Shown here in pieces: positions 1-5,953 of a stretch of 6,145 bases of DNA. The translations under genes were made by a program, and so were the position numbers. The notes beneath the pieces were generated by a model. That model was not told the origin of the DNA and made no database searches. It saw nothing but the letters and a program-made list of their open reading frames with translations. This DNA is from Candidatus Zixiibacteriota bacterium (GTDB lineage: Bacteria; SM23-81). Each line of letters begins with the position of its first letter. Position 1 is the first letter of the stretch. Where the stretch lies: assembly GCA_030628225.1 (NCBI GenBank), contig DAOVRJ010000153.1, forward strand, positions 1 to 6,145, written 5' to 3'.

Positions 1-1083
1 ATCTTTTTGGGGATCACTCTGGTCATTGGCCTGTTGGTGATGGGCTTGGCGAGCGCCACGGAGCACTGCGTGCTGCTTGAGCTGTTCACCAATTGCTACT
101 GAGGGGCCTGCGGCAATGCCAATGCGGCGCTTGACAGTGTTGTCAAGTACGATTTCTCCCCTTCCGAATTAGCAGTGATGCGATGTGAAGTGAACTCCTA
201 CTGCCCTTTATATACCAGTGAAGGAAACAGCAGGCTGTTCTGGTATCCCGAGATGGCGGGTGGAGGCTATTGGACACCCACCGTATGGGTGGATGGAATC
301 GACTCGGTAGCGACATCTGCGACTATCTCATGGTGGTGGGACGAGTTAAGGCGTATGGTCGCCGATCGCCGGGCCGTGTCCAGCCCGCTGAAGATGACTA
401 TGCAGGTGGAATTGGACGCCAAGGCGGATAGTGGGACGGTCCATGTGGAAATCGTGGCCACGGATACCATTCCTTTCACCGGACTGTATATTCGCTTTAC
501 CGTCATCGAGGACGATTTGACCTCTGGGTTAAAGCACTATGACCAAATACTGCGGGATTATTTCCCCTCGACGACAGGATACAGTATAACCATAGCCGAG
601 GGGGACACCCTGAGCTTTTCCGAAGACTTCGAAATCGATCCGTCCTGGGTGCTGGAGAACTGCCGTGTGCTGGTCTTCGTGCAGAACGGCAAGTATGTTG
701 CTCAGTATAAAAGGGAGGTGGCCCAGGCCATCCAGGGTCCGCTTCTTGCTCCGGTGCCGGATGCGGTGGCAAATCTGACCGTCACCCTGTTAGAGAGCGA
801 TCTGGTCCTGCAGTGGTCGCCGGTATCCACCGATACGAGCGGCAATCCCGTAGAGGTGGACTACTATCAGGTCTATCGCGACACGTTGAGCTTTTTCGAG
901 CCCGGCTCCGATCCCTTCACTTCCACCACAGACACTTTCTATGTGGACGACTCGGGGGTGGTGGGGGATGCCGGAACCCACTACTACTACGCCGTGACGG
1001 CCGTGGCGGGAAGCAAGGAATCGGATTTCTCCGGAACGGTTGGGGAGTTCGATACCGGGCTGACCAATGAGCCTCCGGAATAG
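1..1083 (+). CDS. Exported Omp28/thioredoxin-like selenoprotein with FN3-like C-terminus (5' partial, Sec at TGA 100-102)
   Basis: The reading frame is open from base 1 to the tandem TAG TAG stop at 1081-1086 except for one TGA at codon 34. The visible product is 360 codons; the true start lies before the window. Residues 1-19 are the hydrophobic core and ASA cleavage site of a signal peptide. The mature protein opens with VLLELFTNCY-U-GAC, which aligns with VLLEHFTSVN-C-GPC of the lipoprotein encoded at 1283-2329, so TGA replaces the first redox cysteine (U34, C37). The thioredoxin cis-proline is in WTPTVWVDG (Pro93). A beta-rich Omp28-like part follows to about residue 245 and shares GDTLSFS and FVQ blocks with the paralogue. 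Residues about 253-346 resemble a fibronectin type III domain. Extra cysteines are at 23, 32, 62, 68 and 221. By family it should act as an envelope thiol oxidoreductase; substrate unknown. An initiation at GTG 175 would remove the signal peptide and active site, so I reject it. The main alternative is a nonsense-mutated pseudogene. Confidence 0.85.
100..102 (+). other. In-frame UGA recoded as selenocysteine
   Basis: The TGA is in frame with about 33 codons upstream, including a signal peptide, and 326 sense codons downstream, and it occupies the catalytic Cys position of a UxxC motif. The genes ending at 2329, 3741 and 5953 use TGA as a normal stop, which argues against genome-wide reassignment of TGA and for local Sec insertion. 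The second cysteine of the motif (TGC at 109-111) is kept. A SECIS-like hairpin follows at 129-148. Confidence 0.85.
129..148 (+). promoter_or_regulatory. Candidate bacterial SECIS element
   Basis: CTTGACA at 130-136 pairs perfectly with TGTCAAG at 141-147, and G129-U148 can add a wobble pair. The four-base loop at 137-140 is GUGU. There are 34 nt between the UGA and the loop. As I recall the bacterial SECIS consensus, it has a short stem, a small loop with G in the first two positions, and a loop about 16-37 nt from the UGA; this hairpin meets all three. It would bind SelB and direct Sec insertion while also coding for the LDSVVK segment. Confidence 0.75.
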
Positions 1084-1282: not shown

Positions 1283-2329
1283 ATGCCGGACAAACATGCT
1301 CATATTCTGACCAAGGCGGTCCTTGGGTTTTTAGGGGTTGCCCTTATGGGCTTGGCCCTTCTGGGCGGCTGCGGCCAGCAGGATCCGGTGCAGCCTATCA
1401 CGGGGGCTATATTCGTCTCCTCCGACACGAGCGGAGCAGCGATATTTTTAGATGGAGAGGATTCTGGTCAGGCGACACCGGACACCCTGGGGGAAATTTC
1501 GGTGGGCAGGCATGTGGTCCGGGTCCGCCTGGAGGGATTCGTCAGCACCCCGGAGTCGCTGGTGGTTCAGGTCTCCAGCGGACAGATAGCCGAGGCCTTT
1601 TTTGCCATGAACAAGGTGGCCGGCAGCCGGCGGCTGGTCCTGCTGGAGCATTTCACCAGCGTCAATTGTGGTCCCTGTCCCCAGACAAACAGGATCATCA
1701 ATGGGCTGTTGCAGGATTTTGGCCCGGCAAAGGTGGTGGGCATCGAATATCACCCCTGGCCGGCGGATCCCTTTTACGACGCCGCCAACTTTGAGAACAT
1801 CACCAGAAAGAACTACTACAACATCACCAGCGTCCCGGACATATTCGTAGACGGCCTGGCCAATCCCGACCCGTTCGACTCGCTGGACATCGTGGAGGCG
1901 GTGGATGCCAGGCTGGATCAGATGCCCCCTCTGGCCATCGTAGTGACGGACACCGTGGTTGGTCAAAGCTGGGCCGGCACGGCCCAGGTCATCGGGTTGA
2001 CCGACATAGTCAGCAGCGATCTGCGGGGTTTCTTCGTCGTTCTGGAGAAGGAGGTGCATTATTCCCAGCCTCCGGGCACCAACGGGGAGAAGGATTTTTA
2101 CTTCGTCATGCGCAAGATAGTCCCGGCGGCCAACGGGGAGATGCTGAATATCTCCGCCGGCGACACCCTGACCATTTCCCAGGAGTGCGATCTGCATCCC
2201 GATTGTGATCCGGCAGAGATCTATTCTATCTACTTCGTCCAGGACTATCTCAATAAAGAGATTTTTCAGGCCGGCACCTCTCTGCCTGCGGAGACTTCCC
2301 GGTTTTCCCTGATGAGGAATTTGAGATGA
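1283..2329 (+). CDS. PEGA-domain, Omp28-like thioredoxin-fold lipoprotein
   Basis: The product has 348 residues. A lipoprotein signal peptide ends in LLGGC, giving lipidated Cys30. Residues about 40-108 resemble a PEGA domain (IFVSSDTSGAAIFLDGEDSG, ending in a hydrophobic strand), a fold usually linked to surface or cell-wall contact. A thioredoxin-like Omp28 domain starts near residue 116 with VLLEHFTS and carries the redox motif C129-G-P-C132; the cis-proline is Pro185 in SVPDIFVDG. The C-terminal beta part (about 215-348) has a second cysteine pair at 302 and 308. It aligns along most of its length with the selenoprotein at 1-1083, but carries a PEGA domain before the thioredoxin fold instead of FN3 after it. 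It is likely an envelope-anchored thiol oxidoreductase or disulfide handler. Its stop overlaps the next start by ATGA at 2326-2329, which indicates translational coupling. The domain family is fairly sure; the direction of redox chemistry and the substrate are not. Confidence 0.88.
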   Translation: MPDKHAHILTKAVLGFLGVALMGLALLGGCGQQDPVQPITGAIFVSSDTSGAAIFLDGEDSGQATPDTLGEISVGRHVVRVRLEGFVSTPESLVVQVSSGQIAEAFFAMNKVAGSRRLVLLEHFTSVNCGPCPQTNRIINGLLQDFGPAKVVGIEYHPWPADPFYDAANFENITRKNYYNITSVPDIFVDGLANPDPFDSLDIVEAVDARLDQMPPLAIVVTDTVVGQSWAGTAQVIGLTDIVSSDLRGFFVVLEKEVHYSQPPGTNGEKDFYFVMRKIVPAANGEMLNISAGDTLTISQECDLHPDCDPAEIYSIYFVQDYLNKEIFQAGTSLPAETSRFSLMRNLR

Positions 2330-3741
2330 AAAGGAGAGCCTTCAAAACCCTGCCCTCCCTGCTCGTTCTCTTTCTGTGGGTCGGATCCAGCATGGCCCAG
2401 GATTATTCCTTCAGCCACACCTGTGACAATCAGGGCTATGTGGTCCATCCGGACAGCTTCGCTCTCTTCACCACCATTCTGACAAATACCGGGGCCCAGG
2501 CCGATACCTACCGGGTGGTGCTGGACAAGGATCTGCCAGTGCCCTGGTACAGCCTGGCCTGTAATTCCATGGGCTGCTTTCCTGATTCCGTGCGGATCAC
2601 TCTTGCTTCCGCTGAGGCGGAGACCATCACCGTGTACATTTGGCCTTTCAGTTTCACCGGCGCGGGCACGGTGACCATGCGGGTCAGCTCCCTAGGCGAT
2701 CCGGGACAGACGACGGCCATGCCGCTGACGGCCATCACCAACACGGGGGTGGAGGTCCTGGTGGTGGACGACGACGGGACAGAGAATTACGAGACGTACT
2801 ATCAAACCGCTCTGTACAGCACCGGCCGCACCCACGGCACATTGGATAACGCCTTCACCACGATCGGCGCCGATGAGCTGGCTCCCTTCTCTGCGGTGGT
2901 CTGGTTCACCGGAGAGGCGACGCCCGTGTTGACGGAGGAGGACCGTCAAGCGATATCCGCTTATTTAGCGGGTGGAGGGAGGCTGTTCATCTCCGGTCAG
3001 GATATCGCCTATGCGCTGTGTGATCCGGCCAGCGGGGAGTCGGATTCGAGCACGGGTGCATGGTTTACTTACACTTTCTGTGCATCATATGGAGGCGAAT
3101 ATAACAGCACGTTGATATTGAACGGGATTGCTGGCAACTCCATATCCAATAGCAGCACGCTGAGTGTTTCTGGTGGCGATGGAGCAAATAATCAGACAGC
3201 ACCCGATATCATTGAGAATATCTATGGACAATATCCTCACTTTGCTTATCCGGCATTTCACTATTCTGATTTCTACGACTGGCCGCATGTGGGAGCTATT
3301 ACTTTGAGCACCGGGGTCTATCGAATCGTCTACTTCGCCTTCGGCTTCGAGGCCATAGACAACGCCGCCGACCGGGCCCTGCTGATGGAGCGCATCATGG
3401 ACTATTTCGAAGATTCCACTTATGTGGAGACGGACACAGAGATCGCCTCACATCCACAGAACTTCTTCCTCTCGCCCAACTATCCCAACCCATTCAACGC
3501 CACCACGGTCCTGAGCCTTACCATCCCCGGCGATGAGCCTATGCCCGCCTCACTGAAGATCTACAACGTCCTGGGCCAGGAGGTGCGCACTCTGGTGGAC
3601 GGGATCGTCTCACCGGGAAGGCACATCATTCTGTGGGATGGGACAGACGATACAGGCTGGGACCTGGCCAGCGGGGTGTATTTCTCCCGGCTGGATGCTG
3701 GCGGATTCACTCAGACACGAAAACTAGTGTTGTCTCGCTGA
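2326..3741 (+). CDS. Secreted protein with Rossmann/GATase-like domain and C-terminal FlgD-like sorting domain
   Basis: The product has 471 residues and begins at the ATG that overlaps the previous stop, with GAGGA 7 nt upstream. The signal peptide probably cleaves after SMA (residue 24). Residues about 26-138 form a beta-rich Ig-like region with Cys33, 79 and 84. Residues about 141-362 look like a Rossmann-type alpha/beta domain of the GATase/ThuA-like kind: VEVLVVDDDG at the first strand, then FSAVVWFTG, LAGGGRLFISGQDIAYAL and a late VYFAFGFEAI block. I see no convincing catalytic triad. Residues about 383-471 are a C-terminal sorting domain: NYPNPFNATT, LKIYNVLGQEVRTLVDG, WDGTDDTG, ASGVYFSRL and a final KLVLSR. 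This predicts export to the surface by a type IX-like route, if the genome has one. Its place between two thioredoxin-fold genes makes it a possible redox client or partner, but this is inference. Confidence 0.85.
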   Translation: MKRRAFKTLPSLLVLFLWVGSSMAQDYSFSHTCDNQGYVVHPDSFALFTTILTNTGAQADTYRVVLDKDLPVPWYSLACNSMGCFPDSVRITLASAEAETITVYIWPFSFTGAGTVTMRVSSLGDPGQTTAMPLTAITNTGVEVLVVDDDGTENYETYYQTALYSTGRTHGTLDNAFTTIGADELAPFSAVVWFTGEATPVLTEEDRQAISAYLAGGGRLFISGQDIAYALCDPASGESDSSTGAWFTYTFCASYGGEYNSTLILNGIAGNSISNSSTLSVSGGDGANNQTAPDIIENIYGQYPHFAYPAFHYSDFYDWPHVGAITLSTGVYRIVYFAFGFEAIDNAADRALLMERIMDYFEDSTYVETDTEIASHPQNFFLSPNYPNPFNATTVLSLTIPGDEPMPASLKIYNVLGQEVRTLVDGIVSPGRHIILWDGTDDTGWDLASGVYFSRLDAGGFTQTRKLVLSR

Positions 3742-3762: not shown

Positions 3763-4485
3763 ATGAGAAAGCGAATTGGTCTATTTCTGCTGCTGTCGCT
3801 CGTTGTGACCGGCCTGCTTTTCGTCTCCTGGGTCACCGCCGAGGAGGATAACGACAAGCTGCCCATAGTCCCCGATTTTAAGCTCAAGAACCTTGAGGGT
3901 GAAAGAATAGCCCTCAGCGATCTGCTGGGTAAAGGACCCATCCTCATCTCCTTCTGGGCTACCTGGTGCAAGCCCTGTATCAAGGAGCTGCCTCATCTCC
4001 AGGAGTTGTACGAGAAGTACAAAGATAGGGGTTTCCTGGTGGTGGCCATCTCTGAGGATGCGCCGCGGAGCGTCTCCAAGGTGAGAAGCTTCATCGCCGG
4101 AAAGCGCTATACCTTTCTGGTCCTGCTGGACGACAACAACAGCGTTCAGCGCAAGTTGAACTTCCGGGCCATTCCCTACACCATGTTGCTGGACAAAGAG
4201 GGACACATCGTGCACAAACGGATGGGCTACCGTCCTGGCGATGAGCGCTTGCTGGAAGAGGAGTTCTTGTCCTTGATCGAGGTGCCGGAGGAGCGGGAGA
4301 GGATGGCGGAGGAAGAGAAGAAGGATGAGGGCACCGGGCAGACGGCGGAGGATGAGCAAGGCGAACAGGAACAAGGTGAGGGTGAGAAGGGGAGTGCTGA
4401 GCAGGAGCGAGGCGAGAGAAAGTATATAAAGAAAGTGAAGAAGGAATGGGCTAAAATTAAGTCCGCAGAGGGACGCGATGAGTAA
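3763..4485 (+). CDS. TlpA-family exported thioredoxin with charged C-terminal tail
   Basis: The product has 240 residues. An N-terminal hydrophobic segment (about 6-24, KR before it, VTA at 24-26) is a signal peptide or membrane anchor. Residues about 34-172 form a TlpA/ResA-like thioredoxin domain: VPDFKLKNLEGERIALSDL, FWATWCKPC with active Cys69 and Cys72, VVAISED, and the cis-proline in RAIPYTMLL (Pro138). TlpA relatives usually reduce periplasmic disulfides, for example in cytochrome c maturation, taking electrons from a DsbD/CcdA-type protein; none is in the window. Residues 174-240 are an unusual tail, first rich in Glu, Gln and Gly, then Lys-rich (KYIKKVKKEWAKIK). The start is supported by AGAGGA about 10 nt upstream; the gap to the previous gene is 21 nt. 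The end overlaps the next gene by 8 nt. Family assignment is firm; the specific substrate is unknown. Confidence 0.93.
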   Translation: MRKRIGLFLLLSLVVTGLLFVSWVTAEEDNDKLPIVPDFKLKNLEGERIALSDLLGKGPILISFWATWCKPCIKELPHLQELYEKYKDRGFLVVAISEDAPRSVSKVRSFIAGKRYTFLVLLDDNNSVQRKLNFRAIPYTMLLDKEGHIVHKRMGYRPGDERLLEEEFLSLIEVPEERERMAEEEKKDEGTGQTAEDEQGEQEQGEGEKGSAEQERGERKYIKKVKKEWAKIKSAEGRDE

Positions 4486-5953
4486 AGCCTTGACGAGAAT
4501 GGCTCGAATATGCCCTATTCCGGGCTTTTTTTTCTGTCTGTTTCTGATCCCCGGAATTATCCCTCAGGCCGGAGCCCTGGACATGCTGGGCTTCGATCTC
4601 AGCAACCAGATGGAGTACTCCTGGGACACCGAGGACGAGGAGGAGATCTTCGAGAACTGGCTGGATGTCAACTACCGCATGGATATCCTGACCACCGGCC
4701 TGCGCTACGAAGTTTTCCAGCCCTCCAAAACGGGCCAGACGAAGGAGGAGGTTGCCCTGCTCTACTTCGCCGTGGAGAAGGACGGCATCGGATTGCGGGG
4801 AGGCGATTTCTATACGATTTTCGGCCGCGGCCTGGCTCTGCGGGCTTATGAGGACAGGGATTTGCGAGTGGATAACAAACTACGTGGTATTAAGTTTCAG
4901 GGGTACTATCGTGGATTGGAGGCGACGTTGTTGTCTGGCCGCCCACCGCGGAAGGACCGGGATAATGCCGACGAGATTCGCGGGCTCAACCTGAACCTTC
5001 AGCTGGCCCGCGGGCTGAGCTTCGGGTGGAGCTATGCTTCCCTGAAGGCACCCGGAACTTCCGGAAGGGGCACGGAAATCAACACCGGCCGCGTGGAGGC
5101 CTTCGCCGGGCCGCTGAGCTTTTACGGCGAGCTGGCCAAGCGGACCCGCAGCCTGGGGTACGGACTCTATTTTTCATCCAGCTTTTCACGATCGGGATTC
5201 GCCCTCATTGCCGAGTTCAAGGATTACGACCAGATGGTCCTGCAGACCAGCGATGGGCGCCAATACAACACGCCCCCCGCTCTGACCCGGGAGCATGCCT
5301 ACTCCCTCCTCCGGCGCCACCCCCATGTGCTTGACGCCGATGATGAGCTTGGTCTTCAGTTGGAGGCCAGTCTCTCGCCCCTGGAGTGGACCTCGGTGCT
5401 GCTGAACTACAGCTACACGGCGGAGCACGCCAGATATGAAGCTCACCCGAATGCCAGTGCAGAGCTTTCTGGAGAATGGGGCAAGCCTCTCTTCCGGGAA
5501 GCATACGCGGAGGTTACCCAGGAGATCGGGGAGCAGGCATCCCTGGTGGCCGCCGGCGGAATATCTCTGGCCCCTGGGGATGTCAATTATACCGGGGTTT
5601 TGGATGTAAGCCTCTACTTGGATCATATGAACACTATTCGCCTTGAGCTCCAGGCTCAGCACACCGAGGAATACGGAGAATACGACGATCATATGCTCAC
5701 GGTGGAATTCACCCGCGCTCCCCGCCTCTCGCTGAGTCTGGCGGGCGAGCACACCAACAAGTCGGACATGCAGAAGCTTTCCGGTGAGGCCAACAACTGG
5801 CTCTCTGCCCAGATGGATCTGCAGCTGACCGATAATCACGACGCCACCCTGTTCGTCGGTTCCCGGCAGGGAGGATTTATCTGCACCGGCGGCCGTTGCC
5901 GCTGGGAGCCGGAGTTCAAGGGTGTGGAGCTGAAGCTATTCAGCAATTTCTGA
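4478..5953 (+). CDS. DUF6029-like outer-membrane beta-barrel protein
   Basis: The product has 491 residues. It begins with a hydrophobic signal peptide (about residues 10-33, QAGA then LDMLGF). The mature part is made of many amphipathic strands with aromatic girdles (YSFSSS-like, LLNYSYTAEH, LSLSLAGEH) and ends in GVELKLFSNF with a terminal Phe, as expected for BAM-inserted barrels. The block GDFYTIFGRGLALRAYEDRD followed by RVDNKLRGIKF (about 109-140) matches my memory of the DUF6029 family, found in Bacteroidetes and relatives and of unknown function. The mature protein has only two cysteines, 469 and 474, in CTGGRC just before the last strand. The ATG at 4478 follows AGAGGGA and overlaps the TlpA gene by 8 nt, so it is probably translationally coupled; the ATG at 4499 is an alternative start that would still leave a signal peptide. 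It may be a pore or a receptor for the redox proteins of this operon, but no function is shown. Confidence 0.8.
   Translation: MSKALTRMARICPIPGFFFCLFLIPGIIPQAGALDMLGFDLSNQMEYSWDTEDEEEIFENWLDVNYRMDILTTGLRYEVFQPSKTGQTKEEVALLYFAVEKDGIGLRGGDFYTIFGRGLALRAYEDRDLRVDNKLRGIKFQGYYRGLEATLLSGRPPRKDRDNADEIRGLNLNLQLARGLSFGWSYASLKAPGTSGRGTEINTGRVEAFAGPLSFYGELAKRTRSLGYGLYFSSSFSRSGFALIAEFKDYDQMVLQTSDGRQYNTPPALTREHAYSLLRRHPHVLDADDELGLQLEASLSPLEWTSVLLNYSYTAEHARYEAHPNASAELSGEWGKPLFREAYAEVTQEIGEQASLVAAGGISLAPGDVNYTGVLDVSLYLDHMNTIRLELQAQHTEEYGEYDDHMLTVEFTRAPRLSLSLAGEHTNKSDMQKLSGEANNWLSAQMDLQLTDNHDATLFVGSRQGGFICTGGRCRWEPEFKGVELKLFSNF

Follow-up and report, generated by a model that had tools for sequence, protein, structure and literature searches.

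The first gene in the window, by which we mean the whole 6,145-nucleotide stretch of Candidatus Zixiibacteriota DNA under analysis, is very probably a genuine selenoprotein gene, with the UGA at 100-102 read as selenocysteine (Sec) in an exported thioredoxin and Omp28-type protein that has a UxxC redox centre. An earlier note, made from the DNA letters, had proposed a selenoprotein with a UGAC active site, and this proposal is now supported, at the level of sequence, by conservation of the alignment column, by the Sec machinery of the source genome, and by a SECIS-like hairpin. In the mechanism that we envisage, SelB and Sec-tRNA would read UGA 100-102 as selenocysteine under the direction of the hairpin at 129-148, and a signal peptide would take the protein out of the cytoplasm. 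In the exported product, a thioredoxin domain would be joined on its C-terminal side to an Omp28-type beta domain, and U34, through its selenolate, would act with C37 as an extracytoplasmic thiol-disulfide redox centre of the UxxC type. The analysis establishes the codon, its conservation, the Sec machinery, the conserved codons of the hairpin, and a predicted fold; we infer Sec insertion, export, redox activity, and substrates.

The probable selenocysteine codon and its proposed decoding

The Sec-containing Omp28-like gene, delimited by frame reading and homologue search, occupies positions 1-1083 of the forward strand, on which all features described here lie. Its translation runs to 360 residues, with codon 34 as the U of the motif NCY-U-GAC. 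On direct reading, the TGA at 100-102 is the sole interruption in a frame that is otherwise open from base 1 to a TAG at 1081-1083, so that the frame is indeed open on both sides of the codon, as had been claimed. The UGA occupies the position of the first Cys of the CxxC motif, a placement borne out by alignment with the downstream CGPC paralogue and with other homologues, and the resolving Cys 37 (TGC, 109-111) of the resulting UGAC motif is likewise retained, being invariant in alignment A3. Because the window starts at base 1 of its contig (C134), the gene is truncated at its 5' end, and neither its start codon nor the beginning of its signal peptide is on the contig.

A search with a four-sequence alignment returned five loci. 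In a survey over mixed relatives (386 genomes searched), 68 distinct homologous genes were profile-aligned over a domain of roughly 200 codons, with frames allowed through TGA and TAG. The U column of these genes holds 26 TGA, 23 TGC, 18 TGT, and one TCC, the last in a poorly aligned row that is probably misaligned; some of the TGA loci were fetched for having a TGA in the domain, with the position of the TGA itself no criterion of selection. UGA where homologues have Cys is a criterion for bacterial selenoproteins, and the U/C pairs that the earlier note suggested seeking in this column were found (26 TGA against 41 TGC/TGT among the 68 genes). Randomly placed nonsense codons in relatives, named there as a sign to the contrary, were looked for and not seen: elsewhere in the domain, none of the 68 aligned genes contains a TGA or TAG. 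Since 25 further homologous genes share the TGA at this column and the domain is otherwise free of TGA and TAG, chance is excluded. A tree of 67 rows implies at least nine Sec/Cys changes by parsimony, three of them forced by well-supported branches; the root is arbitrary, and the count gives changes without direction. In this tree the window Sec gene stands apart from the neighbouring Cys gene. Separately, one Omp28-like match (L099, G342 C17 51926-52597) was listed with an in-frame TAG; its aligned part has TGC at the column and no TAG in the domain.

Sec machinery in the genome is a further criterion for bacterial selenoproteins, and all four of the genes that were to be checked for (selA, selB, selC, and selD) are present in the source genome. 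Profile searches placed selA (549 bits), selB (383 bits), and selD (364 bits) above their curated cut-offs, and tRNA-Sec lies at C240:150-244, with anticodon UCA and a score of 76.6 bits (ARAGORN anticodon TCA). Next to tRNA-Sec lies selD, whose N-terminal active-site motif TTAAG-U-AAK itself contains an in-frame TGA, a predicted second Sec site of this genome. Among the genomes tested, selB scored above cut-off in 17/17 with a TGA form, compared with 13/24 with Cys forms only (Fisher p about 0.0009). One Cys-only genome (G006) has neither selB nor tRNA-Sec above cut-off. Another genome (G028) has a TGA form and selB, with no tRNA-Sec match above cut-off among the candidates scored, which is possibly due to its fragmented draft and to the partial scoring of candidates.

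Other readings of the TGA have to be weighed against this evidence. Errors of sequencing or assembly, or decay of the gene by nonsense mutation, are very unlikely to account for the codon: although the gene sits at a contig end in a fragmented draft of 306 contigs, the TGA recurs at the exact column in the 25 further homologous genes, of which three belong to the sister genome Zixibacteria SM23_81 (G001), in a domain otherwise without nonsense codons, and the frame stays open for 326 codons past it, with 52-55% identity to two SM23_81 homologues. Decoding of the TGA as some other amino acid, through a reassigned code or plain read-through, is highly improbable in a genome with a full Sec pathway. 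Such decoding would leave the frame open whatever the residue, but Cys is the alternative in all well-aligned homologues and the TGA form occurs only alongside selB among the genomes examined. Moreover, three of the four other complete window genes stop at TGA (2327-2329, 3739-3741, and 5951-5953), just as the earlier note had stated, and the fourth at TAA; TGA is therefore a normal stop here.

Finally, the region could be read as two genes, one for a short peptide that stops at the TGA and a separate ORF that begins at GTG 175, which we hold to be extremely improbable. A mechanical ORF of 302 aa does run from 175, and standard annotation would probably yield this truncated ORF, but a start at that point would lose the signal peptide together with the first strand and helix of the modelled thioredoxin fold, and homologues retain the sequence that spans the TGA. 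Sequencing error, code reassignment, and the two-gene arrangement were thus rejected on the recurrence of the codon, the Sec machinery, and the conserved N-terminus, in favour of a selenoprotein gene.

SECIS-like hairpin and predicted protein architecture

Published rules for bacterial SECIS elements call for a loop of 3-9 nt, a stem of 4-16 bp, a G in the first two loop positions, a spacing of 16-37 nt, and an MFE of -7.5 or lower (PMC13188914). The SECIS-like hairpin at 129-148, GCUUGACA-GUGU-UGUCAAGU, was recognised by folding, codon conservation, and these published criteria; it has a 4-nt apical loop (GUGU, 137-140), an 8-bp stem, a spacing of 34 nt after the UGA, and a folding energy of -9.7 kcal/mol, all within the published limits. 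The energy alone is unexceptional (z -0.62, reached by 6/20 codon shuffles), and energy-based support, weak by itself, was set aside as main evidence. No single SECIS form common to the TGA genes was found, and two loci (L045 and L027) have no qualifying hairpin.

Conservation at the level of codons is a stronger sign of a SECIS element than folding energy. When the window gene and three SM23_81 genes are compared, the codons for invariant residues are identical in 7/7 cases within codons 40-49, as against 24/73 elsewhere (Fisher p 0.0008, a somewhat optimistic value given that the hairpin range was picked after the fold was seen). In the same four genes, all 41/41 pairwise synonymous comparisons agree across codons 42-49, compared with 523/939 gene-wide, and the top-scoring of 142 eight-codon windows fall within the hairpin region. 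The upper stem differs in a single place, where a change of Lys AAG to Glu GAG preserves a U-G pair. The four genes with these near-identical hairpin codons span two genera.

The earlier description of the protein as exported is supported by what remains of a probable signal peptide at 1-60, LLVMGLASAT before EHC, recognised by direct reading, by a modelled helix at residues 2-14, and by the N-termini of complete homologues. These homologues start several residues earlier, with charged residues (MQKKK, MEAKK) ahead of the same hydrophobic stretch, in a typical signal peptide. Export of the window protein is predicted, with a putative cleavage site for its signal peptide.

A thioredoxin-fold domain covers residues about 24-124 (70-372), as indicated by an AlphaFold2 model, Foldseek, and profile matches to thioredoxins, and is followed by a mostly beta domain that matches Pfam Omp28 (PF11551) over residues 92-232 (274-696) in a profile search. 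The Omp28-like assignment is upheld by this match, which at 37.9 bits exceeds the gathering cut-off of 34.9, and by structural likeness to an Omp28 domain. The model, built on an 11-row alignment, is of good confidence over most of residues 21-240 and of low confidence over 254-360. Its best solved structural match is HBP35 of Porphyromonas gingivalis (5y1a, E 6e-13), followed by the Omp28 domain 2r2c from the same species; two small thioredoxin chains and Atu2684 are further matches, at the level of sequence profiles. Together, the model, Foldseek, and the profile matches support a predicted architecture of a thioredoxin domain and then an Omp28-type beta domain.

An FN3 domain had also been proposed but was not confirmed: at residues 250-356 Pfam yields no fn3 match even at E<=1, and the model of the C-terminal third has a pLDDT of about 30. 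Many other proteins of the source genome and its sister genome contain this C-terminal module (748-1068) at 33-68% identity; they are often large and, outside the module, unrelated. Its distribution suggests a lineage-specific surface or secretion module.

Relation to described selenoproteins

The suggestion that this might be an undescribed selenoprotein family, with Omp28-like proteins absent from lists of selenoproteins, was not borne out. A Trx-fold selenoprotein with a UxxC motif, GOS_C, was described in 2008, with 74 sequences in the Sec form and 312 in the Cys form (PMC2398784), and a 2026 review lists it with the domain NF045500 and the motif UxxC (PMC13188914). NF045500 bears the NCBIfam name 'Omp28-related selenoprotein'. 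In view of these two publications and this name, the statement about the lists was wrong.

Among NCBIfam families, NF045500 matches the window protein best (E 1e-10, residues 14-232), and the window protein has the trait expected of it, UxxC within a Trx-like fold with an Omp28-type region after it, the curated members being known here by description and profile. Its score, however, is 41.4 bits against a curated cut-off of 200 (the Cys paralogue scores 36 bits), and no match above this cut-off occurs in the 386 genomes searched. We therefore regard the window protein as a divergent relative that extends the described group, rather than as a strict member. By analogy of motif and fold, its mode of action should be the same as that of NF045500/GOS_C. 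The profile match ends at residue 232, however, and the C-terminal module lies outside it.

Other known systems are less close. HBP35 is the top structural match over 260 columns, and the family profile also matches a short stretch of it, but it was deposited as a 35 kDa hemin-binding protein, shares 15% identity with the window protein, and is alike in predicted fold. The Omp28 lipoprotein family (NF033782; PF11551; PDB 2r2c) resembles the window protein in the Omp28 domain at residues 92-232 and in structure, as judged from the P. gingivalis Omp28 domain; however, the window protein scores 19.8 against 150 bits on NF033782, and no lipobox was seen in the part of its signal peptide that is present. 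TlpA/ResA-like and DsbA/DsbG-like selenoproteins, thioredoxin-fold proteins with UxxC (or UGC), belong to the known catalogue (PMC13188914). They share the UxxC thioredoxin fold with the window protein, which nevertheless has no NCBIfam match to any of them, and the ResA-like gene of the window encodes a separate Cys protein.

A literature search for Omp28 together with selenoprotein gave no match. For Zixibacteria together with selenoprotein, the only match concerns dual code expansion in Deltaproteobacteria. We think it reasonably likely that the window gene and its 25 TGA relatives form a Sec-using Omp28-like group much broader than NF045500, spread over many lineages, with repeated Sec/Cys replacement, and missed by the 200-bit model, such genes being left annotated as truncated. 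The window gene in itself indicates that Sec in exported Omp28-like thioredoxin-fold proteins reaches well past the curated family and into poorly known lineages.

Gene neighbourhood

Four complete genes follow the Sec gene. The CGPC paralogue was correctly placed shortly downstream: it begins at ATG 1271, about 190 bp past the Sec gene stop, and extends to 2329, with a PEGA domain and a lipoprotein-like N-terminus (LLGGC) recognised by ORF, Pfam, and alignment. Next come an exported protein with a FlgD-Ig / T9SS type A sorting-like C-terminus (2326-3741; Pfam and NCBIfam), a TlpA/ResA-like thiol-disulfide oxidoreductase with the motif WATWCKPC (3763-4485; Pfam and NCBIfam), and a DUF6029 protein (4478-5953; Pfam), all three syntenic in the sister genome. 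By eye, the segment at 1113-1144, after the Sec gene stop, is terminator-like (GCCCTCC...GGAGGGC, then eight T); the scan left it unreported, its loop being above the allowed length.

The five-gene order is the same in SM23_81, where two tandem Sec copies (L055 3590-6083, motifs UFDC and UGAC) precede the Cys paralogue, the T9SS-like protein, the TlpA-like protein, and DUF6029. By analogy, a second Sec copy may lie upstream of the window, past the 5' contig end. The locus, in which Sec and Cys paralogues are neighbours within a single conserved cluster, lends itself to use as a test case. A third Sec copy in SM23_81 (L056 4971-6080) has the same N-terminal domains, with a FlgD-Ig/T9SS-like sorting tail in place of the shared C-terminal module.
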